From the IMG/VR virus record IMGVR_UViG_3300021959_000469, positions 1-21,815 of that record: a stretch of DNA of 21,815 nucleotides; one strand, 5' to 3'. Origin of the DNA: a virus. Position 1 is the first letter of the stretch. Each line of letters starts with the position of its first letter. Under the pieces are notes generated by a model. The model did not search any database, was not told where the DNA came from, and was given only the letters and a program-made list of their open reading frames with translations. Both the position numbers and the translations under genes were made by a program. Shown here piece after piece: positions 4,666 through 20,800 of this stretch.

Positions 4666-6870
4666 TTATATTATTTTTGAAGAAAATCCTCTGTTATCGT
4701 ATTTTTTAAATCCAAAATCTAGTTTTTTAACTACTTTATCCGCTCTAGGAGTATATAAATGTCTATTACAAGCCATTATAGCTAATCCAGAACTTATAGT
4801 AGCATCAAATTTTGTTCTATTTGTTATATCAAACTTTGACCAATCATTTAATGTTCTATTAAAATACATAGAACCGTAAGATCCATCAGGTTTTATTCCT
4901 ACATGTTGCTGTATATATGTTTCTATTGCAGCAGCATGAGCTTGTTTAATATCTTCACCTGTATTAGGTATACCACCAACTTCTTTTTCTGTTGTTGATA
5001 ATCTACTATATGTTTTATCAGGTCTATTCATAGAATACCCTCTATAACCTCTTCTTTTTAAGTAATAAAGTAAACGAGGTTTGTTGTTTTCAGCTAATAG
5101 TGGCATCCCATAAAAAACTAAAGACATAAGTACATCTTCAAAGAATATTTCTGCAGTTTGTGGTCTTGCAACATATTCTAAAAAAAATGTATTTATTGGT
5201 GCATCTTCCATACTAAATTTAGTTAAACCATGCAAAGAACCTTTAGATCCTCTTCTGTCAACAGTACCTGATATATCATAAGAGTCACAACCAAAAGCAC
5301 CAATATGTTCATTACCTGGTTTTTTAAAACCATTTTTCATTACAACATTGTTTTGTAAATTCATTTTTGGAATCCATGAAATATAAAATCTACCTTTCAT
5401 GTCGGGATAAAAATTAACCTCAGTATCCTTAACTCCATTTTTCCATTGAAAATTACCTCTAGTAACAATACCACTACTTTTTAAATCTTCGTTGTAATCT
5501 ATTTGCTCATATAATTTAACTAAGTTAAATATACTATTTTTTGTTTCATCTCTAAAAGCATGTTCCTCTGTTCTTGGAAACTGTCTATAAAACTCATTTA
5601 AAGCATCATGATTGCTTTTTAAACCATCTGCTTCATTTTCCCAATGTTCAATGACCCCGATGTCGATAGTTTCACCATGAGGTCCAATAGCTGCTTCTTT
5701 TGGTGTGTCGAATACAGGTAATCCATAAGTATCAATGAATCCTTCGTAATTCCATTCCATAGGTATAAACAAACTATATAATCCAGAGCGAGTCTGTCCA
5801 TTTTTATTTCTTTTTGTGACGTCTGAATCATAATATAATTGTTTAAAATTATTTCCACCTTTATCAAGAGAGTTACTTGTTGAACCCATCATACATTTAC
5901 CTATAATTCTACTACCTAATCTTAAGGTTGTTTTTGTAACCCTCCAGTTATTCAATATGTTTTCTGGTCTTTCCCATTTTCCAGCTTCATCATGAACAAG
6001 AAGTGCAAGCTTTTCACCATCATAACTGTTATCTCCTGTGTTCTTCCAGTCAATAGTTGTATCTAATCCCTCCATTTCTTGAGGTTTATCTTTGGATTCT
6101 AGTCTTTTACGTGTAAATTTTGAAGCAGGTACTCTATATGCAAGCTCAGTTTTAGGTCGATCCATACCATCTTGTATGGGTCTAAAAAAAAATGGATAAT
6201 TAATTGATATTGGTACTACTTTATCTGTAAACATTTTTTTAGCATCAGCTCCAGATTTAGACAATATACCATAACGTGCGTCAGAAGATATAGTTGCTAA
6301 GTTAACTGTTTCTCCTGATGCCATAAATGAAAAACCTGAACGTCTATTTTTAAGGTAGCACATTCCATAACATCGTTTATCTGCTTTACATGCTTCCCAG
6401 AAAATGAAGAACAATCTGTTTGCTTCTCTAAAATCTGGTCTTCCTACATCAATTTTTGTCCATTGCAAGTACATGTAATGAGTCCCAGTAATATAAGTAG
6501 GATTACCTTTGTTATTGAACCAATGACCTTCTTCACGTCTTGTAAACTCTCTGTCAATATATCTATGCCATTTTTCTTTAAATTCACTTGGTAGTTCTTT
6601 CCAATCAAATATACTTTTAATTCTTTTTAGTTCTTTAGGATATTCGTGTTGTTGCCATTTATTGTTTTCATTAGAAACTTTTTGTGTTTTTGGTAAAGCT
6701 ATTTTTAAGTTTTGTATGCTATACACGTCTCCTATTTCACCTGTTTTACTTATAACCACTACATCATATTCCTTGTTATAACCATACTCCCATTTTTTTG
6801 ATTTATTCAATCTATTAATAGTAGTTTTTTTAATAGGTTCTATTGTTTTATATAAACTTTGTTCGTACAT
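4666..6870 (-). CDS. terL: Terminase large subunit
   Basis: This 734-aa protein is the motor that drives phage DNA into the capsid and cuts concatemers. The N-terminal ATPase half shows LKNRRSGFSFMAS (about 173-185) at the Walker A position, a clear Walker B (KLALLVHDEAGK, catalytic Asp-Glu at 294-295) and a motif III-like MMGSTSN (327-333). The C-terminal half looks like an RNase H-type nuclease, with GAFGCDSYD (Asp529) as the probable first metal ligand, acidic residues around 565-579, and FDATISSGLAIMA near the end. The Walker A lacks the usual Gly-Lys-Thr/Ser, a deviation also seen in some other phage terminases. The N-terminal segment WEYGYNKEYDVVVISKTGEI recalls terminases of Bacteroidota phages. 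The start codon overlaps the stop of the preceding gene (TAATG), and the portal gene follows after three bases. Confidence 0.9.
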   Translation of the reverse strand: MYEQSLYKTIEPIKKTTINRLNKSKKWEYGYNKEYDVVVISKTGEIGDVYSIQNLKIALPKTQKVSNENNKWQQHEYPKELKRIKSIFDWKELPSEFKEKWHRYIDREFTRREEGHWFNNKGNPTYITGTHYMYLQWTKIDVGRPDFREANRLFFIFWEACKADKRCYGMCYLKNRRSGFSFMASGETVNLATISSDARYGILSKSGADAKKMFTDKVVPISINYPFFFRPIQDGMDRPKTELAYRVPASKFTRKRLESKDKPQEMEGLDTTIDWKNTGDNSYDGEKLALLVHDEAGKWERPENILNNWRVTKTTLRLGSRIIGKCMMGSTSNSLDKGGNNFKQLYYDSDVTKRNKNGQTRSGLYSLFIPMEWNYEGFIDTYGLPVFDTPKEAAIGPHGETIDIGVIEHWENEADGLKSNHDALNEFYRQFPRTEEHAFRDETKNSIFNLVKLYEQIDYNEDLKSSGIVTRGNFQWKNGVKDTEVNFYPDMKGRFYISWIPKMNLQNNVVMKNGFKKPGNEHIGAFGCDSYDISGTVDRRGSKGSLHGLTKFSMEDAPINTFFLEYVARPQTAEIFFEDVLMSLVFYGMPLLAENNKPRLLYYLKRRGYRGYSMNRPDKTYSRLSTTEKEVGGIPNTGEDIKQAHAAAIETYIQQHVGIKPDGSYGSMYFNRTLNDWSKFDITNRTKFDATISSGLAIMACNRHLYTPRADKVVKKLDFGFKKYDNRGFSSKII

Positions 6871-7142
6871 TATTTAGATCTTCTTTCAGCAAAACCTTTA
6901 AAACTTTGTTCTTTTTTTTCTATAGGTTTATTTTCTAATAAACTTTCTTCTTCCTGTATCCTATTTAGTATTTCAAAAGCATCAAATATAGCTAGTTTTT
7001 TTGTAGCAGCAGCATTTTTTAATCTATCAGCAGATATATCATCATCTGAATCTACTATAGGCTCTTTAGCAACTTTTATTAATTCATCTACAGCTTTATG
7101 TCCAGCTTGGATTATATTCTTTTTCGTGTCCTTGACGTTCAT
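6870..7142 (-). CDS. Putative terminase small subunit
   Basis: This 90-aa protein is immediately upstream of the large terminase and coupled to it by a TAATG stop-start overlap. Small terminase subunits recognise the packaging site and regulate the ATPase. The sequence is mostly helical and charged: an N-terminal helix (QAGHKAVDELIKVAKEP), an acidic linker (VDSDDDISADRLKNAAATKK), a second helix (LAIFDAFEILNRIQEEE) and a Lys-rich tail. The AAATKKLAIFDAF segment is one I associate with proteins beside terminase in marine phages. It has no obvious helix-turn-helix and is shorter than many small subunits, so the function rests on position and size. Its first 47 bases overlap the end of the upstream GroES-like gene. 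The ATG at 7140-7142 is the only reasonable start in frame. Confidence 0.5.
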   Translation of the reverse strand: MNVKDTKKNIIQAGHKAVDELIKVAKEPIVDSDDDISADRLKNAAATKKLAIFDAFEILNRIQEEESLLENKPIEKKEQSFKGFAERRSK

Positions 7143-7683
7143 ATTTTATACAAATTGATTTAATTGGAACTCTATATAGTCTTTCGTTATCTATAATAAA
7201 TTCATATTCACTATTTGGAGTAAATCCAATTAGTGTATTTTTTTTAATAATTTTATTGTTTTCTATATACTTAACAACACCTATTAATTCACTTTCTTTT
7301 TCTGTAGAAAAAAAATTATTTTTTTCAATAGGTTTTACAAAACAAAAATCATCAATTGATTTCCATGTTTTATTTTGTTTATACATGAAAATTTGATCTA
7401 AATAAATAAAATACTTATTTTCTTTAAAGTAAGATGAACTATCTACTTCTTCACCTCTTATATTATTATATCTTCTAAATATATTATGATGAACTATTAC
7501 TTCATCTCCTATTTTTATATTTGTTTTTATGTTTTTAGGTACAGATAATACAATTGCATTTCTATTAACATACCTGTGATCTTCTATTTTAGTGTTTAAT
7601 ATTAAGTTTTTTTCACCTACTTTTTTAATATTATTATATCTTGATTTAATAGGTTCAACAATAAAAGCATATAAACTTTGCAT
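7096..7683 (-). CDS. Tandem GroES-like (Cpn10-fold) protein, putative co-chaperonin
   Basis: The 195 residues read as two successive GroES-like units. Unit 1 (about 5-102) starts with YAFIVEPI, like the GroES beta strand RVIVKR; then a polar loop with a hydrophobic triplet (KKVGEKNLILN, 20-30) at the place of the GroES mobile loop and its Ile-Val-Leu; then AIVLSVP and IKIGDEVIVHH, matching the GroES EVLAVG and VKVGDIVIF strands; then YFIYLDQIFMYK, matching the closing strand. Unit 2 (about 112-182) repeats this as FCFVKPIE, LIGVVKYI, TLIGFT and ERLYRVPIKSICIKY, but its loop has no hydrophobic triplet. The fold is inferred from this pattern only. If right, it may cap the phage or host GroEL, as T4 gp31 caps host GroEL. 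It overlaps the upstream stop (TAATG) and overlaps the putative small terminase by 47 bases. Confidence 0.55.
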   Translation of the reverse strand: MQSLYAFIVEPIKSRYNNIKKVGEKNLILNTKIEDHRYVNRNAIVLSVPKNIKTNIKIGDEVIVHHNIFRRYNNIRGEEVDSSSYFKENKYFIYLDQIFMYKQNKTWKSIDDFCFVKPIEKNNFFSTEKESELIGVVKYIENNKIIKKNTLIGFTPNSEYEFIIDNERLYRVPIKSICIKYERQGHEKEYNPSWT

Positions 7684-7904: not shown

Positions 7905-8366
7905 TTATTTTTTAAATATACTCGCTGCTTTTTCTCCACTTCGTCCACCAAAATAAGCTAACACAACTGACATCATAACTTTTTCAAAAGTATCGTTCCA
8001 TGTTTCACCTATATGGAATGGTATTGATTCTACACTATCTAATATTCCAGCCAATGAGAATATAACAATACACCACACTAAAACTAGAGGGCGTACATTT
8101 TTTGAAAGCCATGAATCTGACATAGAATCTGCTTGCCATCTCGAAGTGATGCTTTCCATTTCTTTATTTTGCTGTTCAAATATAAGTTGCTGTAATTTTA
8201 TTTTATCCTCACTACTTGCATCAGATTTACCTATTGCTGCTATAGCTTCTGCTGGTGTTGAAGCTCCACTAATTAAATTACCTAAAGTAGGGTTTACTAA
8301 CGATGCAGCACCGAATAAAAGTTTACCTACAGTAGTTTGTGCAAATTTCTTTTTTTTATCACTCAT
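7905..8366 (-). CDS. Holin, GTA-type 3TM family
   Basis: Holins accumulate in the inner membrane and at a set time form lesions that start lysis. This 153-aa protein matches the layout of the 'holin of 3TMs, for gene-transfer release' family: a weakly hydrophobic N-terminal segment (GKLLFGAASLVNPTLGNLI, about 14-32), a Gln/Glu-rich amphipathic middle, the conserved-looking SWLSKNVRPLVLVWCIVIFS leading into a transmembrane helix (about 91-109), and a second membrane helix (VMMSVVLAYFGGRSG, about 130-144) followed by a basic tail. SW-x5-RP at the membrane entry and the terminal YFGGR-G-E are features I associate with this family. I see no endolysin or spanin gene beside it; those may lie outside the window. 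It lies seven bases... downstream of the 50-aa gene (8373-8525), which ends just before this ATG. Confidence 0.7.
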   Translation of the reverse strand: MSDKKKKFAQTTVGKLLFGAASLVNPTLGNLISGASTPAEAIAAIGKSDASSEDKIKLQQLIFEQQNKEMESITSRWQADSMSDSWLSKNVRPLVLVWCIVIFSLAGILDSVESIPFHIGETWNDTFEKVMMSVVLAYFGGRSGEKAASIFKK

Positions 8367-8372
8367 TTTATT

Positions 8373-8525
8373 TTATTTATATGGAAACATTTCGTTTAAA
8401 CGTTTTTTTCGACCTTCACAACCACAAGGTATATTTAAACCTTTAGAAACTTTATCTACAATAGTTTTAATACCACTGGCTTTTGTTATTTTTTCTACAG
8501 TATCTCCTAAACCTTTTGATTTCAT
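8373..8525 (-). CDS. Conserved 50-aa phage protein with Cys-Gly-Cys motif
   Basis: A short gene found by translating the gap between the HEXXH protein and the holin. It runs from ATG at 8523-8525 to TAA at 8373-8375. The product begins MKSKGLGDTVEKITKASGIK and ends NIPCGCEGRKKRLNEMFPYK. The two halves, an amphipathic helix (GDTVEKITKASGIKTIVDKV) and a CGC followed by a basic helix ending in FPY, are a combination I recognise from small proteins in phage head and lysis regions of Bacteroidota and marine phages. The function is unknown. The two cysteines could bind a metal or form a redox pair, but a single CxC is too little to assign this. It starts two bases after the upstream stop and ends six bases before the holin start, so it fits the operon exactly. 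Confidence 0.7.
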   Translation of the reverse strand: MKSKGLGDTVEKITKASGIKTIVDKVSKGLNIPCGCEGRKKRLNEMFPYK

Positions 8526-8527
8526 TT

Positions 8528-9901
8528 TTAATCTAATATTGATTTTAAAAAACTAATTCTATTTCTTTTAGCTAATCTTAGATTTTCTTTTTTATTTTCT
8601 TCTTCGAAGTCTATTCCTCTAAAAAGCATGGATCCTTTAAATTTACCTAATTCTTTTGATTCTAACAACTCTTGCTCAAACCACGCGCCAAACTCCGCAT
8701 TTTGGTTTTTGTAATCATTTTGACCTCTTGTTGTAAATTTAGTTTTATAGGTTAAACCTAAAATAGCATCTAAACCAGAAAGATGTGTTGGGTTTGTTGG
8801 ATCTTTTGAACCTTGACTAGTTCTTGAGAATTTTTTACCTACAGGATACTCCGACGCGTGCGTACCTTCGTGAAAAATAAAACTTTTAACCTCGCTAATA
8901 GGTGTTGAAGGCTTAGTATAAATCGAACCTGTACCACGATTTTCAGCCATTTCATGAATTAAATGAATTGTTTTTGTAGGAACATTATATGCAGCTCTAA
9001 CGCTAAGGCCTGTAAAATTTCTTTTTTCATCATGAAAAGCAGGTCTTGATAAACCAAAATTCAATTGTTCCTCTAAATTATATCTATTAAAATCTCTAGC
9101 ATGATATAAATATTTATCTGTGTTATATCTTCCTCTAGATTCATCTAATTCATTTACTTTTATAAAATCTTTATCTTTTGTATCTAAAACGGTTCTATAA
9201 ATATTTTCTGGATAATATCTATCATAAAATTTATCATAATCAAAAGTCTGAGAATTTTGAGGTTGATACCTATTTTCATGTTCTTCGCTATAATAAGAAT
9301 AATTTTTTAGATTAGGAACTGAATCTTTAGGTTTCATTTTGTTTCTAATGTTAATGAAACTATCTATTTTACCATACGAAATTCCACCCCTTGACCCTTG
9401 TGATAATGCACTATATGTATCAAAATTTACATTTTCATTTATTAATTTCACAAGCTTTTTATTTCTTTCTGCTGAAAATCTTTCAATTAATGCATTGTTT
9501 TTTATTTCACCTAAATTAAAGTTTAGTTTTTTATCCAATGTGGGGTATTTAGGATCATTTCTTTCTATGCTCTCACTTTTTTCTATACCTTCTTTATTAA
9601 AAAAATCTCTATATCTTAATGCTAATTTTAATCTATTAGATTCTTTTATGTTTATATTAGATAAAGTTGACTTATAATTACCAGTATTTTGAAAAAATTT
9701 TTTATAATTTTCATATTCTTCTTGCGTGGGCGCTTTGTCAAAATCTATATTATCAGAAAAATATATTCTTTTATCCTCGTATTTAGGTATTTTGTTTTTG
9801 TTAATTCTTCTAGTTAACAATGAATTGACAGATCTTTCTAACCTTGGTTTGGCTTTAAATTTTTTTAATAATTTAAGTATATTAGGATCTAGTTCTTCCA
9901 T
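8528..9901 (-). CDS. Putative zinc-metallopeptidase-like phage protein (HEXXH)
   Basis: This 457-aa protein has no family I can name. Its C-terminal third contains SEVKSFIFHEGTHASE, with HEGTH at residues 344-348 (codons 8858-8872), a perfect HEXXH zinc-binding and catalytic motif preceded by a hydrophobic helix as in zincins. Downstream, NAEFGAWFEQE offers Glu403 as a possible third zinc ligand, about 55 residues on. An aromatic-rich region (about 200-275) with many Tyr and Asn precedes it. The N-terminus (MEELDPNILKLLKKFKAK) matches that of the upstream protein at 9902-10765, suggesting a shared targeting or docking signal. Possible roles are a virion protease acting in head maturation, an ejected protein or a cell-wall or surface hydrolase; none is proven. 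The upstream TAA is directly followed by this ATG with no gap. Confidence 0.6.
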   Translation of the reverse strand: MEELDPNILKLLKKFKAKPRLERSVNSLLTRRINKNKIPKYEDKRIYFSDNIDFDKAPTQEEYENYKKFFQNTGNYKSTLSNINIKESNRLKLALRYRDFFNKEGIEKSESIERNDPKYPTLDKKLNFNLGEIKNNALIERFSAERNKKLVKLINENVNFDTYSALSQGSRGGISYGKIDSFINIRNKMKPKDSVPNLKNYSYYSEEHENRYQPQNSQTFDYDKFYDRYYPENIYRTVLDTKDKDFIKVNELDESRGRYNTDKYLYHARDFNRYNLEEQLNFGLSRPAFHDEKRNFTGLSVRAAYNVPTKTIHLIHEMAENRGTGSIYTKPSTPISEVKSFIFHEGTHASEYPVGKKFSRTSQGSKDPTNPTHLSGLDAILGLTYKTKFTTRGQNDYKNQNAEFGAWFEQELLESKELGKFKGSMLFRGIDFEEENKKENLRLAKRNRISFLKSILD

Positions 9902-10765
9902 TTATTTTTTTGATAATTTATACTTACCTTTTTCCTCTTTTATATATCTTCTATCATATATTTCAAATTCATTTACTATACTTTCTAATGGTCCTTTAAA
10001 ATCATACTTATCATATATAGATATATATTTTTGTTTTTTATCTTTATCATATCCAACACTAACTTGAAAATTTTGGAGTGGATCTATTTCTTCAAATTTA
10101 TCAGAATCCATAAAACCTTCACGTATATAAGGAGTAAGTCCTTCTATATTTACAGTATCACCTACTTTTTTATTTTCTATTTTTTTTAATAATTTTTTAT
10201 AATCAATAACATCATCACTTAAAGCATAATATTTAGCATTAGGGTTTTTTGATTTAGTAGGTTTGTATTTATTTTGCTTAATAATATATTTATTTTTAGT
10301 TTCTAAACCTAAAGACATAGCCCAAGCTTCATCACCTATTGTATAGTCACCATCTTTATCTAAAGAAGGAGGAGTTGTGTTGTTTATTCCTAGTTTTTTA
10401 CCCATTAAACTAATCATTGTAGTTGTCATAGTAGTAATGTTTGGATAACTCAAGGGTCTTACATTATCAAATATAAACTGTTTATTCTCTTTTGATATAT
10501 CAGAAAAATCTGTGTATTGAGACATTTTATTCATTATAAAATCGCTAACATTGTCCACTGCTTTAGCACCACGCTTTAATGCTGGAAAAACAATATCATC
10601 ATCTAAAACATTACCACCTCTTCCTGAATTAGAAAATTGTAAATTTTGAGTTTCGTTTATTTGATTTTTAATTAAACTATTACCAAAACCTATATTATTA
10701 TTTATAGATTTGTTTTTTTTAAAATTTTTTATAAAATCAAATATTTCAGGATCAAAGTTTTCCAC
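9902..10765 (-). CDS. Unknown phage protein sharing an N-terminal leader with its downstream neighbour
   Basis: This 287-aa protein begins at a GTG (10763-10765) that overlaps the preceding TAG stop as TAGTG. The start is supported because the translated N-terminus, MENFDPEIFDFIKNFKK, lines up with MEELDPNILKLLKKFKA of the next gene. Residues about 20-75 are polar and look flexible. The middle has a small hydrophobic stretch (TTMTTTMISLMGKKLG) and an acidic DKDGDYTIGDEAWAMSLGL, where DKDGD resembles a calcium-binding loop but could be chance. The C-terminal part has alternating Lys and aromatic residues, including QKYISIYDKYDFKGP, a pattern I associate with structural proteins of Bacteroidota phages. 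It lacks a signal peptide and recognisable catalytic residues. A virion or ejection role is inferred from position only. Confidence 0.55.
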   Translation of the reverse strand: MENFDPEIFDFIKNFKKNKSINNNIGFGNSLIKNQINETQNLQFSNSGRGGNVLDDDIVFPALKRGAKAVDNVSDFIMNKMSQYTDFSDISKENKQFIFDNVRPLSYPNITTMTTTMISLMGKKLGINNTTPPSLDKDGDYTIGDEAWAMSLGLETKNKYIIKQNKYKPTKSKNPNAKYYALSDDVIDYKKLLKKIENKKVGDTVNIEGLTPYIREGFMDSDKFEEIDPLQNFQVSVGYDKDKKQKYISIYDKYDFKGPLESIVNEFEIYDRRYIKEEKGKYKLSKK

Positions 10766-10888: not shown

Positions 10889-11146
10889 TTAACATTTCCA
10901 ACGTCTTCTAGCTGCTCTACCTCTTTCACCTGTCCAACCTTTTGATCTAGCACAAAAAGATTTTCTACGTTTAGCTGCTTTGCTGCCTTTTTTCACTTTG
11001 CCTGTTACAGCGGTTTTTAATTTACTACCAGGGTTGTTTTTTCTATACTTTTTTACACCAGCTTTAGTCATACCAGCGCCTTCTTTAACAGTACGAAAGT
11101 TTCTACTTTTACCTTTAGTAGTTTTTCTTAATCTTTTAGCAGGCAT
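10889..11146 (-). CDS. Small basic protein, DUF6321-like
   Basis: The 85 residues carry very many Lys and Arg and begin MPAKRLRKTTKGKSRNFRTV. The central block has GVKKYRKNNPGSKLKTAVTG followed by GSKAAKRRKSFCARSKG and a tail GRAARRRWKC. The NPGSKLKTAV and KAAKRRKSFCAR-S-G blocks are what I know from the DUF6321 family of phage and bacterial proteins, whose biochemical role is unestablished. The composition resembles nucleic-acid-binding or DNA-condensing proteins. The usual family member has a longer insert before the final RRRWKC, so this one appears short in that region. The start overlaps the stop of the tiny upstream gene as TAATG. With its neighbours it makes a run of three very basic proteins. 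Confidence 0.7.
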   Translation of the reverse strand: MPAKRLRKTTKGKSRNFRTVKEGAGMTKAGVKKYRKNNPGSKLKTAVTGKVKKGSKAAKRRKSFCARSKGWTGERGRAARRRWKC

Positions 11147-11237: not shown

Positions 11238-11678
11238 TTAACGTTCTTTATCTTTTATCATATCATCAAAAGCTTTATTAAAAACTTTATCTGTATATGA
11301 TTTGTTTTTAAAAAAAATATTTTTTCTAGTAACAGGTACATCTTCATCACCTAATAGTATTCTGTAAACTCTACTAATTAATTGTTTTGTTTTAAAAGAA
11401 ACACAGTATATGCTATATTTTATAGTTGTTCTATTTCTATTTCTCCAAACATCTATCCAACCCTCGTTTCTTAATCTTTCCCAACGATGTTTATCCCAAC
11501 TATATGTGTAAACACCATCTTTAAAGTCTTTTATAGAAAATCTATTTAAACAGTCTAAATATATAAGAAGCTCTAAGTCTGCTTCTTTTATTTTATATGT
11601 TTTACAAGCCCACTTTCTTACTATTCTATAATACTTTAATATTTGTAATTCTTTTAAATCACTTGAAGAAAGTTTCAT
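11238..11678 (-). CDS. Winged-helix-like (MarR-type) small phage protein
   Basis: The 146-aa protein reads as helices followed by a wing. KYYRIVRKWACKTYKIKEAD and LELLIYLDCLNRFSIKDF are consistent with the first helices of a MarR-like fold. DKHRWERLRNEGWIDVWRNR then looks like a recognition helix leading into a beta-hairpin wing (TTIKYSIYCVSFKTKQLISR), and a C-terminal helix follows. No close regulator comes to mind; similar proteins occur in marine phage structural regions, and I cannot tell whether it is a DNA-binding regulator or a virion protein with this fold. Its ATG overlaps the GroES stop as ATGA (11675-11678), so it is probably translated with the chaperonin genes. Confidence 0.5.
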   Translation of the reverse strand: MKLSSSDLKELQILKYYRIVRKWACKTYKIKEADLELLIYLDCLNRFSIKDFKDGVYTYSWDKHRWERLRNEGWIDVWRNRNRTTIKYSIYCVSFKTKQLISRVYRILLGDEDVPVTRKNIFFKNKSYTDKVFNKAFDDMIKDKER

Positions 11679-11932
11679 ATAACAATAACAACATCTTGTT
11701 GTCTAATAACATAATATGTTTTATCATTATATTCAACCATATGGCCAGCATGTTTATCATAATAAATTTTATCATTTGGATTTAAACCATCTGTTTGGTT
11801 ACCAACACTTATTATATGACCTTGTAAATAACGTATATCTTTTTTATCATTATTAGTTAATATCAGTCCATTAACTTTTTTTGATTCTTCTTTTATTTTT
11901 TCTATTATAATATAATTATTTATCGCCTGCAT
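11675..11932 (-). CDS. groES: Co-chaperonin GroES
   Basis: GroES forms a seven-membered lid that caps GroEL and drives release of substrate into the folding cage. The 85-aa product has the whole outline: an opening strand (NNYIIIEKI, 5-13), a mobile loop (about 16-33) with the hydrophobic GLIL (22-25) that docks on GroEL, GHIISVGNQ, LNPNDKIYYDKHAG for the next strand and roof loop, and a closing strand VIRQQDVVIVI. It is about ten residues shorter than the E. coli protein, mainly by small deletions, and looks intact. It lies after GroEL and overlaps it by 17 bases, the reverse of the common bacterial groES-groEL order. Its stop overlaps the next gene by ATGA. Sequence is far from any host copy I know, so a recent host capture looks unlikely. 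Confidence 0.88.
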   Translation of the reverse strand: MQAINNYIIIEKIKEESKKVNGLILTNNDKKDIRYLQGHIISVGNQTDGLNPNDKIYYDKHAGHMVEYNDKTYYVIRQQDVVIVI

Positions 11933-13475
11933 TGAGTCTCATATTAGAAATTACACAATCTGCAGATATTATAGTGCTAACAACACTAACCGCATTTTTT
12001 AAAGCTGTTTTTGTAACTAATACGGGATCTATTATTCCAGCCTTTAACATATTAGTTTCTTTACCATTTACAACATTTATTCCAAATCCTTTTTTATTGC
12101 TTTCTAAGTATGGTAAACCAGCATTTTCTATTATAACAGAATAAGGATATTTTATTGAGTTTAACAATATTTCTTCCCCTATATTTTCAGCTTTAATTTT
12201 TTGTGATGCATTTAAAAGTGCAACTCCACCTCCTGGAACAATACCTTCCTGTAGTGCTGCTTTAGTTGCATATATTGCATCTTCAACTCTATCTTTTTTT
12301 TCTTTTAACTCTACTTTTGAATCAGCACCAACTTTTATAATAGCAACAGAACCTGTTAACATAGCTATTCTTTGTTCTAATTTGTTTTTTATAAAAGCAT
12401 TAGTTTCTGTTTCTATTTTGCTATACACACTTTTTATTCTTTCTTTAGCATCTTCATTAACTTCTTCTATAGTTAGAACAGTGTTTTTATCATCTGTAAT
12501 GGACTTTAAGCATTCACCTAATACATCAGGTTGGATTAAATCTAAATCATCTCCTAGTTGCTCATCTATTATTTTAGCTCCAGTTAAACAAGCTAAATCT
12601 TCTATAGTATCTCTTTTAGTAGAAGCAAAACCAGGAAGATCAACAACATTAACTCTAATATTGCCTTTAACTTTATTAGTTAATAATGCAGACATAGGCT
12701 GTTGATCTACAGAAGCCACAATCAATAAACTTCTTTTTGTTTTAATTATATGTTCTAATACAGCTTGTATTTTTCTAATATTAGTAATTGGAGAAGCTAC
12801 TATTAATATATAAGGATTATCTAAAATAGATTTATCTTTATTTTCATTTGTAGTTAAATGATTTGATTTTAAACCAGAATCAAATTGTACACCCTCCACA
12901 TTTTCATAATAAGTTTTTTCAGTTTCTGACTCTTCCATTAATACAACTCCATTTTTTCCAACTTTATTGTAAGCATCTGCAATTATAGATCCTAAAACAT
13001 TGTCATTGTTAGCTGATATAGTGCTAACATCTTTAAGCTTATCATGTTTAACATCAATAGAGATTTTATCTAAGTAATTGTTTATTTTAAATAAACCGCT
13101 TTGAAGACCTAGTTTTATATCTCTTATATTATATTTTTCTTTTTTACAATTTTTTAAAAGTGAGTAAGCAAGGACGGTAGCTGTAGTAGTACCGTCTCCC
13201 GCTTCTTTCACTGTGTTTTTAGCAGCTTCTTTTAAAAGTGTTGCTCCTATATTTTCTAAAGGATCAAATAATATTACTGATTCAGCTACAGTTACACCAT
13301 CTTTAGTTATAACTGGTTTACCTAATGAATCTTCGTATATTACACATTTTCCTGAAGCTCCTAGTGTAGACTTAACAGCTTGTGTTAACTTGCCTACACC
13401 TATCATTATTTTGTTGTTAGCATCTGCCCCAAAAGACAAATCCTTAACTATCTCACTTGGGTTATTATATTCCAT
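11916..13475 (-). CDS. groEL: Chaperonin GroEL (phage-encoded)
   Basis: GroEL is the 14-subunit ATP-driven folding chamber. The 519-aa product aligns over the whole family: equatorial ATP site with ITKDGVTVAE (Asp59, E. coli Asp52), AGDGTTTATVLAYSLL (94-100 is the signature DGTTTAT), and RVEDAIYATKAALQEGIVPG with Asp399 (E. coli Asp398), plus GGGVALLNA. The apical part includes EGVQFDSGLKSNH (194-206), VVDLPGFASTKRDTIEDLA and LTGAKIIDEQLG. The catalytic aspartates are kept, so it is probably an active ATPase. The flexible Gly-Gly-Met tail is absent; the protein stops at NMRLNAGDK, about 29 residues shorter than E. coli. Several apical substrate-binding positions are altered. Phage GroELs are known from giant Pseudomonas phages; here it lies within a structural operon, suggesting it folds capsid or fibre proteins. 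Confidence 0.93.
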   Translation of the reverse strand: MEYNNPSEIVKDLSFGADANNKIMIGVGKLTQAVKSTLGASGKCVIYEDSLGKPVITKDGVTVAESVILFDPLENIGATLLKEAAKNTVKEAGDGTTTATVLAYSLLKNCKKEKYNIRDIKLGLQSGLFKINNYLDKISIDVKHDKLKDVSTISANNDNVLGSIIADAYNKVGKNGVVLMEESETEKTYYENVEGVQFDSGLKSNHLTTNENKDKSILDNPYILIVASPITNIRKIQAVLEHIIKTKRSLLIVASVDQQPMSALLTNKVKGNIRVNVVDLPGFASTKRDTIEDLACLTGAKIIDEQLGDDLDLIQPDVLGECLKSITDDKNTVLTIEEVNEDAKERIKSVYSKIETETNAFIKNKLEQRIAMLTGSVAIIKVGADSKVELKEKKDRVEDAIYATKAALQEGIVPGGGVALLNASQKIKAENIGEEILLNSIKYPYSVIIENAGLPYLESNKKGFGINVVNGKETNMLKAGIIDPVLVTKTALKNAVSVVSTIISADCVISNMRLNAGDK

Positions 13476-14558: not shown

Positions 14559-17500
14559 CTAATTATTTTCTAAAGTTTCAAGCCTTGACTTAAGATCATC
14601 TATAATTGTTTGTTGTTCTTTAACTGCATTTATTAATACAGCTGTTAGTTCCCCATATGCAACTGATTTCAATCCTGAATCAGAAGCTTCAACTATTAAT
14701 TCAGGTAACACAGCTTCAACCTCTTGTGCTAGTACTCCAATTTTAGTTACATCTGTATTAAAATCGGTTCTATTATAGTAAACACCTTTCATTGCTTTTA
14801 CTTTATCAATAGCGTTTGGTATTTCAACTATATTTTCTTTTACTCTTTCATCTGAATTTTGTGTTAATGAACCGTTTATAGTCATGTTGGCGGACGTCAT
14901 ATAGAATGTAAATCTAGTACTTGCCCCTTGCCTCCAGTGTATATCTCCTACATTCGCATCAAAATATGTATGTGAGTTGTTTGTATGGAATCTAAAGTAA
15001 TTTCCAGATGTTCCGCCTATGTATATATTACCTGTGCCTGAGGCGCCCGCTTGTATATTACCAGCTGTGTGTAAAGAATTTATATAACTAGATGTGCTGG
15101 GCCTTGTGTAATATGTTGTATTGTTATAATCATAATATATAGGTGACCTCATTTGATCTAGTGATGTTACACCACCTGCTGTATATATTGAAAGATATGT
15201 AGTATTAGGATTATAAAATCTTTTGTCTCCGTATACTCTTACATATACGCTATCTTCCATCCACATACCACCACCATGAGTATTACTGTACCAACCAGAG
15301 TTTCCAGTTGTTCTTAACCAATCGCTAGCTATGAATTGTTGAGCTTGAATACGATATATATTACTTGTAGAAGCAGGATTTGTATAATAACCAGTATTAT
15401 CTGAATCGTAAAATATTGGTGCTCTATATGACCCCGCTGCAGTGCCATATCCTTTTAACCAGACATTTCCACTTGAACCATGGACAGTCCATGCTGTAGA
15501 ATCACTACCTACAAAAGCAAATTCATTTGGGTTTGTGCTATTGCTCCATATGTTTCCAGGGCCGCCATTACCATTTGTTCCATATCTTGCACCACTATTT
15601 CCAGCCCAGAATAATCCCCATGTATTACTCGCTACAGTCATCATATAGGCATTATAATCACTTGCCAACCTAAAGGGATAGTTACTTTGCCCATCACCAC
15701 TTGTGGTTACCCTCCCCAAAAACGCATCAGCAAATGTACTGACTAAATTACTTGTGCCACCTGCGTCTAAATAATATGCTGTATTACTATACTCGTAGAA
15801 TATAGTGGCCCTTACATCACTAAAGTTTGTAGCAGAATTACCACCACCATTGATGCCACCATACAACCAGTTATGTCCAGCTGAGTAGATACCCGATGGA
15901 TGCCATGAAGCTGAGCCAGTACCACCAACATTTCCATTGCCTTGGTATTGGTAAGCTTTCATTGCATAAGTATTACTAGTACTATTTGGGTTTACATAAT
16001 AACTCGTATCACCTTGATCATAAAAAGCATTACCATATACGTTACCGTCTGAAACAATATTTTGTTTAGCCCATATTGTTGTGCTTCCTTGACCTATTGT
16101 AGCCTCAAAAGAACCATTAGCAGCAACATACATACCCCAATCACTAGTTTTACCACTACCCCATAAATTAGGATGTGCAAACCCTATACCATACATATTT
16201 CCTAATGTTGTACTATTAGGATTATACGAACTACCTATTGTATATATTGGGTTTGTATATGTTGAGTTCCCTCCTATGTTGTTATATGATCCCTCAAAAT
16301 GCCCTCTATGATGCTCTGCTCTATTCAGTCGATCTATTACACTTTCTCCCGCGGGGTTTGTGTAATATGTTGTATTATTTGAATCATAGAATACTGGTGC
16401 TCTATAAGAATTGCCTGCATATCCAATATTACCAGTGTAAACATCATTAGTATCTAATTGAACATACCATGGCCATACACCATTAATTTGTGCATAAGAG
16501 GTAGAATCTGCGGGAGCACCAAGAACATAAAATCTATTTGAATTATTATGTAATACTACCGATCTATGATCTGTATCCCTTAAAGCAATTTGCGGAGAAG
16601 AGTGCCTTAAAACTATTTCACTACTATTGAAATAGGTATTTGTATCACCTAAATCATAAAATATTTCAGATCTAGCTGATGTTCCAGATAAATGTAATGC
16701 TCTATTGGTATTATTACCTGTGTAAAAATCTAATTGTCCATAGTTTGTTTGTATTCTTGGTATATTAGATGTTAATGGCGAAAGCCATAGATAAGTACTG
16801 GCATCATTACTTTGTATATTTAATGCAGATGTCCAAGCACCAGGATATGATCCCATTGAATTTTCAGTATCACCATCTTCTTTTATTGTTATTTGTCTAG
16901 GTAAACCTGTACTTGATGTATTAAATGTTGCTTTAGCAAAAGTAACCGCTGTACTTGTACTAGCACCTCTTCCTGTAACTGTTGCAAGTGTATCTGTTTC
17001 TGTATATCCTGTAATATACCCACTGTCATTTGTCCATTGAGATATATTACCAGATTTATTAGTAAGTGTATCTGTAGAGCTAGCTGTAATAAACCCATAA
17101 CTATTATTCCAATTTGTATTACCATCTGTGATATAACCACTGTCATTAGTAAACATAGAAATGTTACCTGACTTATTTGTAAGTGTTTCAGTTGATGATG
17201 CTGTAATAAAACCATATGAGTTATCCCAATTTGTATTACCATCAGTTATATAACCTGAGTCATTTGTCCATTGAGATATGTTACCAGATTTGTTTGTTAG
17301 CGTATGTGTAGAAGATGCAGTTAAATAATTATTTGTAGTTAAATAACTTCCAACTCTTGCATCAGTATAATAAAGATTTGTACCTTCACTTAAATCGCTT
17401 GTACTCGCTGCGGCTATTCTAGCATCAGCTCTTGCATCTGTATAATATAAGTTCGTTCCCTCGCTTAAATCACTAGTTGACTTAGCTGCAAATGCAGTAT

Positions 17501-17816
17501 TAAATCTTGCTTGTGTATAATATAAATTTGTTCCTTCGGATAAGTCTGAAGTTGATTTGCTACTTAAATCTAAATTGCTACCAACTTGTAATGCAATTCT
17601 AGCGTCAGTTCTTGCATCTGTGTAATATAAATTAGTACCCTCAGATAAATCTGATGTACTTAAATCACCTATTCTCGAATCAACTCTGGCGGTTGTAAAA
17701 TATAGATTACTTCCTTCTCCAATATCTGAAGTAGTAATACCGTGACTTGAATGTAAGTGTCCCTGGGTTATTGACCCGTCTTGTATAAAATCACCTGATA
17801 CTTTAGTTAATGCCAT
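14559..17816 (-). CDS. Tail fibre/spike with C-terminal S74 self-cleaving chaperone domain
   Basis: The 1085-aa protein begins MALTKVSGDFIQDGSITQGH, a common N-terminus for phage fibres. Residues about 31-154 hold five copies of DLSEGTNLYYTDAR or close variants; residues 165-269 hold a 39-aa repeat with LTNKSGNISQWTNDSGYITD, nearly three units. The long beta-rich shaft carries six variants of FYD-x-x-NT-x-YY-x-NP. The last 98 residues (from Ser988, codons 14559-14855) are an intramolecular chaperone domain of the peptidase S74 family: SDERVKENIVEI, TKIGVLAQEVEAVLPEL, and a terminal helix ending LKSRLETLENN. By homology the domain trimerises the fibre and is cut off just before the Ser. It starts 14 bases before the upstream fibre gene ends, so the two are probably cotranslated. 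The receptor is unknown. Confidence 0.88.
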   Translation of the reverse strand: MALTKVSGDFIQDGSITQGHLHSSHGITTSDIGEGSNLYFTTARVDSRIGDLSTSDLSEGTNLYYTDARTDARIALQVGSNLDLSSKSTSDLSEGTNLYYTQARFNTAFAAKSTSDLSEGTNLYYTDARADARIAAASTSDLSEGTNLYYTDARVGSYLTTNNYLTASSTHTLTNKSGNISQWTNDSGYITDGNTNWDNSYGFITASSTETLTNKSGNISMFTNDSGYITDGNTNWNNSYGFITASSTDTLTNKSGNISQWTNDSGYITGYTETDTLATVTGRGASTSTAVTFAKATFNTSSTGLPRQITIKEDGDTENSMGSYPGAWTSALNIQSNDASTYLWLSPLTSNIPRIQTNYGQLDFYTGNNTNRALHLSGTSARSEIFYDLGDTNTYFNSSEIVLRHSSPQIALRDTDHRSVVLHNNSNRFYVLGAPADSTSYAQINGVWPWYVQLDTNDVYTGNIGYAGNSYRAPVFYDSNNTTYYTNPAGESVIDRLNRAEHHRGHFEGSYNNIGGNSTYTNPIYTIGSSYNPNSTTLGNMYGIGFAHPNLWGSGKTSDWGMYVAANGSFEATIGQGSTTIWAKQNIVSDGNVYGNAFYDQGDTSYYVNPNSTSNTYAMKAYQYQGNGNVGGTGSASWHPSGIYSAGHNWLYGGINGGGNSATNFSDVRATIFYEYSNTAYYLDAGGTSNLVSTFADAFLGRVTTSGDGQSNYPFRLASDYNAYMMTVASNTWGLFWAGNSGARYGTNGNGGPGNIWSNSTNPNEFAFVGSDSTAWTVHGSSGNVWLKGYGTAAGSYRAPIFYDSDNTGYYTNPASTSNIYRIQAQQFIASDWLRTTGNSGWYSNTHGGGMWMEDSVYVRVYGDKRFYNPNTTYLSIYTAGGVTSLDQMRSPIYYDYNNTTYYTRPSTSSYINSLHTAGNIQAGASGTGNIYIGGTSGNYFRFHTNNSHTYFDANVGDIHWRQGASTRFTFYMTSANMTINGSLTQNSDERVKENIVEIPNAIDKVKAMKGVYYNRTDFNTDVTKIGVLAQEVEAVLPELIVEASDSGLKSVAYGELTAVLINAVKEQQTIIDDLKSRLETLENN
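17010..17324. repeat. 117-bp coding repeat in second tail fibre
   Basis: On the coding strand residues 165-269 consist of two full units and one partial unit of a 39-residue repeat, with LTNKSGNIS starting at 173, 212 and 251. The units differ by only a few residues (SQWTNDSG against SMFTNDSG). Near-identical tandem units are substrates for slippage or recombination that would change shaft length. Confidence 0.8.
17355..17726. repeat. YYTDAR-type repeats in second tail fibre
   Basis: Five units of the form D-(L/I)-(S/G)-E-G-(T/S)-N-L-Y-(Y/F)-T-x-A-R start at residues 31, 56, 91, 116 and 141; the steps are 25, 35, 25 and 25 residues. A related unit, EGSTNLYYTDARSRSA, is in the first fibre gene near 21541-21600, so both fibres share the module. 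Confidence 0.8.
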
Positions 17817-20800
17817 TTATTTGATCTTTTAATGTTTGGACTTCTTGAGTTAATTCTTGAACTGCTTTTATAAGCATTGGTACAAATACTGAATATTTTA
17901 CTGATTTAGTTGGTGTTTCCGTATCACCACATTCATATACCATTCCTGGGAATATTTCTTCTAATTCTTGCGCAACTACACCTATTTGTTTGTTTGGCGT
18001 ATTTGTTTCTTCATCTACATCACCTATGTAATTAAAGTTTACAACTCTTACTTGATTTATATCATCTAACTTTGGTGTTGCATCTACAATATTTTCTTTT
18101 AAGTTTATATCTGATAATTGCCCATAACTGTTGTTACTATTTTGAATATTACCATTTGAATATATTTTTATTCTTTCAGTTGAACCGCCTTGACCTAAGA
18201 AAAATCTTGATGTAGTATTATTATGTGCTGCTGCAGATATAACATTTATACCATAAAATTGTACAGCTGTTGTGCCAACTTGATGATAAAACATACATAT
18301 AGGTTCGTTACTAGAGCCGTTTTCTATTGTATGAAATCCATACCCTGGACCATAACCAAATGTTCCAGTACCACTAGCTCTAAACCAGTTGTTGATAAGC
18401 TTAGTGTCGGCATTGCTAATTTCTACTCTATTGCTTCCGTTTGTATGAATTACAAAATTATCATTTGATGGGAAACCAATATACGTATTTAAATCACCTA
18501 AATGTCTAATATAATTACTTAAATGAATTTGATCCAATTGGCTATCGCTCGCTGGATCTAAATAATAACCTGTGTTATTTCTGTCATAATATATAGGTGA
18601 TCTTACGTCATTGTATGATTCTAAAAATCCGTTTTGTATAATTACTCTATCTGATTCAACTAATAGTTTTCTTGAACCTGCTACAGCTAAGCCTAATTGA
18701 TTAGTTCCTGGTCTATACATGCCAGAGTCTTTATCTTCAGCAAATGCTATTGAAGGTGCTGAATTTGTTCCATCAGCGTAATATTCATTAGCAGAAATTT
18801 TAATTACTTTCCAACCTGAGATATAACATGCTCTTGTTCCTGAGCCAGCACCATAATTAAATAGTGCCATAGGGGTCCAGTATTTTGTTCCATTTTCAAA
18901 AAATCCAACTGAATTAGCATCGTTACCTCTAATAATACCATTGACTTTAAGCCACGAATTTCCTGCGTTTGTATTTGCCATAACCCAATACCCAAAAGCT
19001 CCTGGATTACCACCTAAACTAGTAAATGATTCATTAAATTCATTAGAACCCATATAATGCGTTTGACCAGTACCAACATTTTTAATGTAACACTCCATGT
19101 AATATATAGCTCCTTCTTCAACTGGTATATATGGGAAACCAGAATTATAAACACCACCTACATTAACACCACCATTTATATATATTGCATATCCGCCAGG
19201 CGCATCAGCCTGTGCACTCCATGAAACATTACTATTTCCAAAGTATTCTTGTAATTGTTCGTCTTTCCAGGTTGGATCTATTGACCAAATTTCTTTACCA
19301 CCTGTATAATGTCCTACCGGCCATTCTTGTGAACTAGATATTCTAGCATTCTCTAATAATAATCTATTCATTACGCTAAGGCCATCAGGATCTACATAAT
19401 AAGCTGTATTACTAATATCGTAATGTCTTTCACTATAAGTGTTACCACTTGCGTCTACTCTAAATCTATGTGTTGAACCTGTAGCAAATTGTAAGTTACC
19501 TGCTGAATTTGCATTAGCATCAGAAGATTCGTAAATCTGCCAACCATTACCATTATTCCAAGTAATTCCTTCAGCATACCCAGGATCATTTATAGTAATA
19601 GTATTTACATTAGTTAAGCTACCATTATTCATATTAATACTAGATGTCTGCGATGTTCCAGCTGGATTAATATATCTTCCCGTATTATCTGTATCATAGA
19701 ATATTGGTGCTCTAAAACTTCCCGCAGCAGTTGCAACACCTGAATCATCAGCTGAAAATTCTACAGTAGTCCAATTATAATCTACAACTTCAAACCTCCT
19801 ACCCGTGCCTGTACCTAATTGAACTGTTAGTATACCTGCAGCTCTGTCAGATGCTCTCCCAATCCATGCTTCACCCGTGTTTGCCTGTGAGCTACCAAAT
19901 GTACCAACTTGTATTCTACCTTGTAAATTTGCGGAAACTCCATTAGAGCCATTACTAGGATCAACATAAAAAGCAGTATTATCTGAATCATAGAATATAG
20001 GCGCTTGTATGTCTGTTGCTGCTGTAATTGGTGAGTCAAAATTCCACCTATCACTAGATATTTGTATACTGTGATAACTATTACCATCATACCATCTTTC
20101 TTTATATGGTCCGTAACCACTTCCATTATTAGTTCCTTTGTGAACTGCTGAATAACTTCCGTCAGCTCTAGCGTCTTGATATGCGTATGAGCCGTTACCA
20201 CTTTGATATAAATTAAGACCGGATCCTTGCATAATACTAATAGCTCTCGTTTGAGATGTATCAGCAGGGTTTACATAATAATTAGTATCATTTGAATCGT
20301 AGAATATCGGTGCTCTGTGGGATGCATAAGCTATTGAATTACCGCTATTATCTACTATTAAAGCATTTATCGTATCTCCACTGTTATTGAATCTAAGCCC
20401 ATGGCTTGGTGAACCTACAAAATAACCATTATTATCTAACGTTATTGCGGCGCTAAGTGTATCCGCAGCATTGCTTCTTAAATACTTAGGATCTGTTTGT
20501 GTTGTTATATCAAATGAAGTTATATAACCTGCGCCTGCATGATCGCCCCAACCATAAGCTGTATTCCAGTTTGAATCATTGTATCCTGACGCTGTTAATG
20601 TGCCAGTAAACGTAGCATTACCACTTGCAGTTATTGTTAATCTTGCAGTTTCATTAGTTCCTAAAACTAAATTTCTGCCAGAGCTATTATGGTAAACATA
20701 CATAGCAGTATCATCCAAAGCAATAGCACCCTGATAACCATTACCATCAATCATTAATTGACCATTGGCACTTGAATCCATGCTAATATCACCATCATTT

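Follow-up and report, generated by a model that had tools for sequence, protein, structure and literature searches.

A short N-terminal leader shared by adjacent, otherwise unrelated proteins of an uncultured marine Bacteroidota phage

The capsid-targeting sequence of phage T4 is a short N-terminal leader borne by diverse, strain-variable internal proteins whose bodies are unrelated (PMC3012670). Microcompartment encapsulation peptides combine a terminal amphipathic helix of about 18 residues with a poorly conserved flexible linker and are found on different cargo (PMC12339742). Crassvirus, a podovirus of Bacteroidota, stores proteins in both head and tail, including the cargo proteins gp45 and gp46 (PMC10172136). 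Here we describe two adjacent phage genes, P2 and P1, whose products share a leader that invites comparison with these systems.

The DNA analysed (the window, 21,815 nt) is a 21.8-kb IMG/VR fragment, IMGVR_UViG_3300021959_000469, from an uncultured marine Bacteroidota phage. Its terminase and portal match those of Flavobacterium elemo phages, of Cellulophaga phi38:1 and relatives, and of the metagenomic podovirus MW202828 (62% identity in the terminase); the phi38:1-type and elemo phages are podoviruses of Bacteroidota. The main genes lie on the minus strand in the order fibre proteins, GroEL/GroES, basic small proteins, P2 and P1, continuing after P1 with a 50-aa protein, the holin, three small genes, the terminase, the portal and the probable scaffold protein (1034-2218), whose N-terminal part is acidic. 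P1 and P2 are thus located between GroES and the holin/terminase genes, outside the portal-capsid block, with 162 nt separating the end of P1 from the holin (Table 1). A 49-aa gene similar to the 50-aa one immediately precedes the HExxH gene of a related locus (L079). Elsewhere in the window, the phage GroEL and GroES genes adjoin (11675-13475) and a second GroES-like protein (phrog_13932) is encoded near the terminase (7096-7683). Two consecutive, slightly overlapping fibre-like genes (14559-17816 and 17803-20781) both end in a KENI...GV(L/V)AQE(V/L)E stretch, typical of the S74 intramolecular chaperone; the first contains several STSDLSEGTNLYYTDAR repeats.

Table 1. Positions of the leader-bearing genes and their neighbours in the window.
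Feature	Position	Strand	Remarks
P2, 287 aa	9902..10765	-	lacks HExxH; no Pfam, PHROGs or PDB-sequence match
P2 leader MENFDPEIFDFIKNFK, GTG start	10718..10765	-	read from the sequence, conserved in relatives
P1, 457 aa	8528..9901	-	leader, K/N-rich linker and body with zincin-like motif
P1 leader MEELDPNILKLLKKFK	9854..9901	-	read from the sequence, conserved in relatives
P1 HEGTH (HExxH) motif, residues 344-348	8858..8872	-	alignment of relatives
P1 invariant Glu403 in EFGAWFE	8693..8695	-	alignment
50-aa Cys-containing protein	8373..8525	-	between P1 and holin
Holin (phrog_3427)	7905..8366	-	in relatives, commonly adjoins the HExxH gene

P2 begins with MENFDPEIFDFIKNFKK and P1, which has an ATG start, with MEELDPNILKLLKKFKA. 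The first 16 residues of both follow the consensus M-E-x-[LF]-D-P-x-I-[LF]-x-[LF]-[LI]-K-x-F-K; an earlier note on this DNA had reported such a common leader, and the resemblance reads as written there and proves stronger than first described. The GTG of P2 comes directly after the upstream stop codon (TAGTG) and the ATG of P1 directly after the stop codon of P2 (TAAATG). When all 2,556 N-terminal protein pairs of a relative of 61,578 bases (G003) were scored with BLOSUM62 over residues 2-16, the P2-P1 pair ranked first with 39, against a background mean of -12 (SD 8.9), and none of 200,000 shuffles of the leader reached this score. The next-best pairs were signal-peptide pairs (30 and 28) and a tail-fibre N-terminal pair (28). 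The hydrophobic moment of the leader lies in the 96-98th percentile of 11-mers. The shared start is likely an N-terminal signal.

Residues 1-16 are invariant in nine of nine P2 and nine of nine P1 sequences, window included, and every homologue with an intact start carries the leader. When P1 genes are set against one another, and P2 genes likewise, the leader codons compared show synonymous changes and no non-synonymous ones, while P1 residues 17-66 vary freely and P1 bodies fall to about 69% identity among relatives. P2 is 92-98% identical over its whole length, so the contrast between leader and body rests mainly on P1. As proposed in the earlier note, related genomes were searched for the leader: a degenerate DNA pattern matched 8 of 2.9 million viral contigs and a relaxed pattern 9, all from this lineage. 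The pattern occurs two or three times per contig wherever the contig extends past P2; in G003 it is confined to the P2 and P1 genes. Since the leader is limited to one small lineage, the selection acting on it is measured over a short evolutionary time.

In two of the nine contigs with complete P2 and P1 (window included), a third leader-bearing gene, P3, is found between them (3300017744_000305, 396 aa; 3300006921_000289, 394 aa). Its leader reads MEELDPNIL[KE]LL[EK]KFK. A direct repeat comprising TAA-ATG-leader is present at both borders of P3, extending over 51 nt with 98% identity in one locus (L018) and over 56 nt with 91% identity in the other (L002). Thus, gain or loss of the gene can take place precisely at the leader: recombination between the repeat copies would add or remove P3 and nothing else.

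Zincin-like HExxH motifs are present in P1 and P3 and absent from P2. The P1 motif reads HEGLH in relatives, and H344, E345 and H348 are invariant in nine P1 sequences; Glu403 is a possible third metal ligand. Both P3 proteins contain HELSH as well as SELGAR. On the strength of these motifs, P1 and P3 may be zincin-like metallopeptidases. Searches of Pfam, PHROGs and PDB sequences with P1, P2 and P3 returned nothing usable, matches to integrin and BglII being at chance level. No close P2 was found in bacterial genomes, and the YDKYDF region of P2 did not recur in relatives. AlphaFold models of P1 and P2 (pLDDT 33 and 36, respectively) were unusable and lend no structural support to the leader helix or the zincin fold.

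To place the locus in a wider context, 80 loci with a related terminase were compared. P1, P2 and P3 were detected in none of them. The place of P1, just before the holin, is taken in these phages by small HExxH proteins (24 members; phrog_10499, phrog_16532), all starting M-x-[FY]-K-[LMI]; for 17 of the 24 a holin was detected, and its start is -61 to +868 nt away from the end of the HExxH gene. Like P1, these proteins combine a position before the holin with a shared leader of their own; unlike P1, they are short (102-145 aa versus 457 aa) and their leader is different. Profile comparison with hhalign confined the alignment of P1 with these proteins to the HExxH stretch (P 0.0006, probability 28%), and any homology between them is tentative. 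Against isolated phages, the small proteins gave weak matches only. Nine other plus-strand ORFs (66-282 aa) in the 80 loci share the M-x-[FY]-K-[LMI] start, with up to three per genome (L096), whereas the minus strand gave one match, which is the chance level. One of the nine, from L086, is a basic Cys-containing protein which, when compared by eye, looks like DUF6321 proteins. Altogether, the two leaders show that shared short leaders recur in this phage group, with sequences that differ by lineage. The searched literature yielded no mention of the FKMKG motif.

Several further observations concern shared starts and small basic proteins in these phages. A MAFK[ML]KG-like leader occurs on several unrelated neighbours, including the small HExxH protein before the holin, in L084 (for example at 1375-2627 and 5655-6050), L096, L086, L113 and L080. 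The window encodes a basic Cys-containing DUF6321 protein (10889-11146), and the protein that looks similar in L086 (7656-7901) bears a MAFKM leader. In G003, MARIS(S/K)Y is another common N-terminus, found on fibre-like proteins (L031-L034; reversed coordinates 25734-30290 and 30681-31379). Upstream of its amidase and portal genes, Cellulophaga phi38:1 encodes a small basic protein, gp080, which has a structural annotation and resembles by eye a small basic protein of G003. A leader of the present kind is absent from gp080; its annotation and this likeness hint at the incorporation of small accessory proteins into the virions of these phages.

The reading that we favour, with a confidence just short of even, is that the leader is a docking tag for one common partner and that P1-P3 are cargo, most likely of the virion interior. 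The leader would probably form an N-capped amphipathic helix, with D-P as the cap followed by hydrophobic residues at positions 8, 9, 11, 12 and 15. Its hydrophobic side would fit a docking groove, and a K/N-rich linker would join it to the body. The common partner would bring P2 and the zincin-like P1 to one place, together with the likewise zincin-like P3 in those relatives that have it; the scaffold, the portal or the inner capsid are the most likely candidates. The cargo could then reach the host along with the genome or serve in the maturation of the head. In line with the earlier note, the idea that proteins with unrelated bodies share a modular N-terminal signal is well supported by the leader-only similarity, the purifying selection, the third member and the fact that an entire gene has come or gone at this point. 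Several lines of evidence argue for a docking tag: the leader is invariant, with synonymous changes only, while P1 bodies diverge; what the three profiles have in common lies at their N-termini; the repeat framing P3 gives the locus a cassette structure; the hydrophobic moment is high; and the second leader marks, in relatives, the small HExxH proteins before the holin and other ORFs of those loci. It also fits that the P2-P1 pair scores best of the 2,556 and that the runners-up in the pair scoring include known kinds of signal and anchor, namely secretion signals and fibre N-termini.

Packaging into the virus particle, as a possible goal of the leader, is suggested by the precedents of T4 (PMC3012670), crassvirus cargo (PMC10172136) and microcompartment peptides (PMC12339742). 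As in T4, one N-terminal leader is found on proteins with unrelated bodies, and the set of proteins varies between related phages, P3 being the variable member. T4 leaders enter a scaffold core; the likeness proposed here is one of idea. In T4, the capsid-targeting leaders are cut off by the head protease. Microcompartment peptides are alike in architecture only, their shell system being different. Crassvirus virions hold megadaltons of cargo, which speaks for virion cargo here (PMC10172136); gp45 and gp46 are large proteins for which no shared leader is reported, while P1-P3 are lineage-specific accessory proteins. Against virion cargo stands the result of a tblastn search, in which P1, P2 and P3 had no match in 50,697 phage records; moreover, P1 adjoins the holin, as a protein involved in lysis might.

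Indeed, the leader might dock its proteins outside the virion: on the inner membrane or holin, on the phage GroEL/GroES, or on one another, for instance as parts of a protease complex with a role at lysis or with host proteins as its targets. We consider this unlikely, yet worth weighing. P1 adjoins the holin, as do the small HExxH proteins in relatives, the leader is amphipathic, and the GroEL/GroES genes lie just upstream. However, the leader has no apparent transmembrane or secretion signal, and G003 encodes an M15 endolysin-like protein and a row of signal-peptide proteins elsewhere, so that P1-P3 are not the main lysis enzymes. P1 or P2 as the endolysin was likewise dropped on account of the M15 endolysin-like gene.

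Somewhat more doubtful is the view that the shared start is a relic of recombination, left by capture or fusion at a short homologous 5' segment and having no targeting role, or serving translation initiation only. At the DNA level, the P1 and P3 leaders do agree closely (98% identity over 51 nt), and they mark the precise borders of the gene that was gained or lost. On the other hand, the P1 and P2 leaders differ at many codons and keep the protein pattern, and within either gene the leader undergoes synonymous change only, while the P1 residues that follow it change freely. Besides, a leader function and recombination at the leader can coexist.

It is improbable that P1, P2 and P3 are old paralogues over their full length that have diverged beyond recognition everywhere but at the start. 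P1 and P3 both contain HExxH, and a BLAST comparison of the two, uncorrected for composition and with the low-complexity filter off, gave 30% identity over 188 residues. This similarity, weak and of low complexity, is unsupported by hhalign, which aligned N-terminal columns only: 18 for P1/P3 (P 1.7e-6), 37 for P1/P2 (P 0.0013, probability 18%) and 20 for P2/P3 (P 0.0023). P2, moreover, has another length and no HExxH. The earlier statement that the bodies of P1 and P2 do not align therefore holds, and their full-length paralogy, which would have spoken against a leader, is contradicted by the profiles; P1 and P3 may be distant paralogues. Finally, a chance resemblance of two lysine-rich starts is very improbable, for although 18 of 300,000 random 15-mer pairs from the same proteome score equally high (a null to which fibre repeats may contribute), the pair is the top one, its genes are adjacent, its conservation is strict and a third gene already carries the leader.

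In conclusion, the leader is best read as a docking tag that is specific to this lineage and sits on swappable proteins, which are plausibly carried in the virion. A possible, more tentative extension is that a cassette of cargo genes stands before the holin in these marine phages, that the tag differs by lineage (the DP-helix here, M-x-[FY]-K-[LMI] in relatives), and that recombination at the tag adds or removes proteins, often a protease; the tag would then serve both as address label and as exchange site. If the leader loads particles, its sequence alone would mark unknown proteins that are carried into the host by a widespread marine phage group, and would provide a short tag with which such particles could be loaded with proteins. 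Recombination at the tag would offer phages an easy means of exchanging the proteins they deliver.
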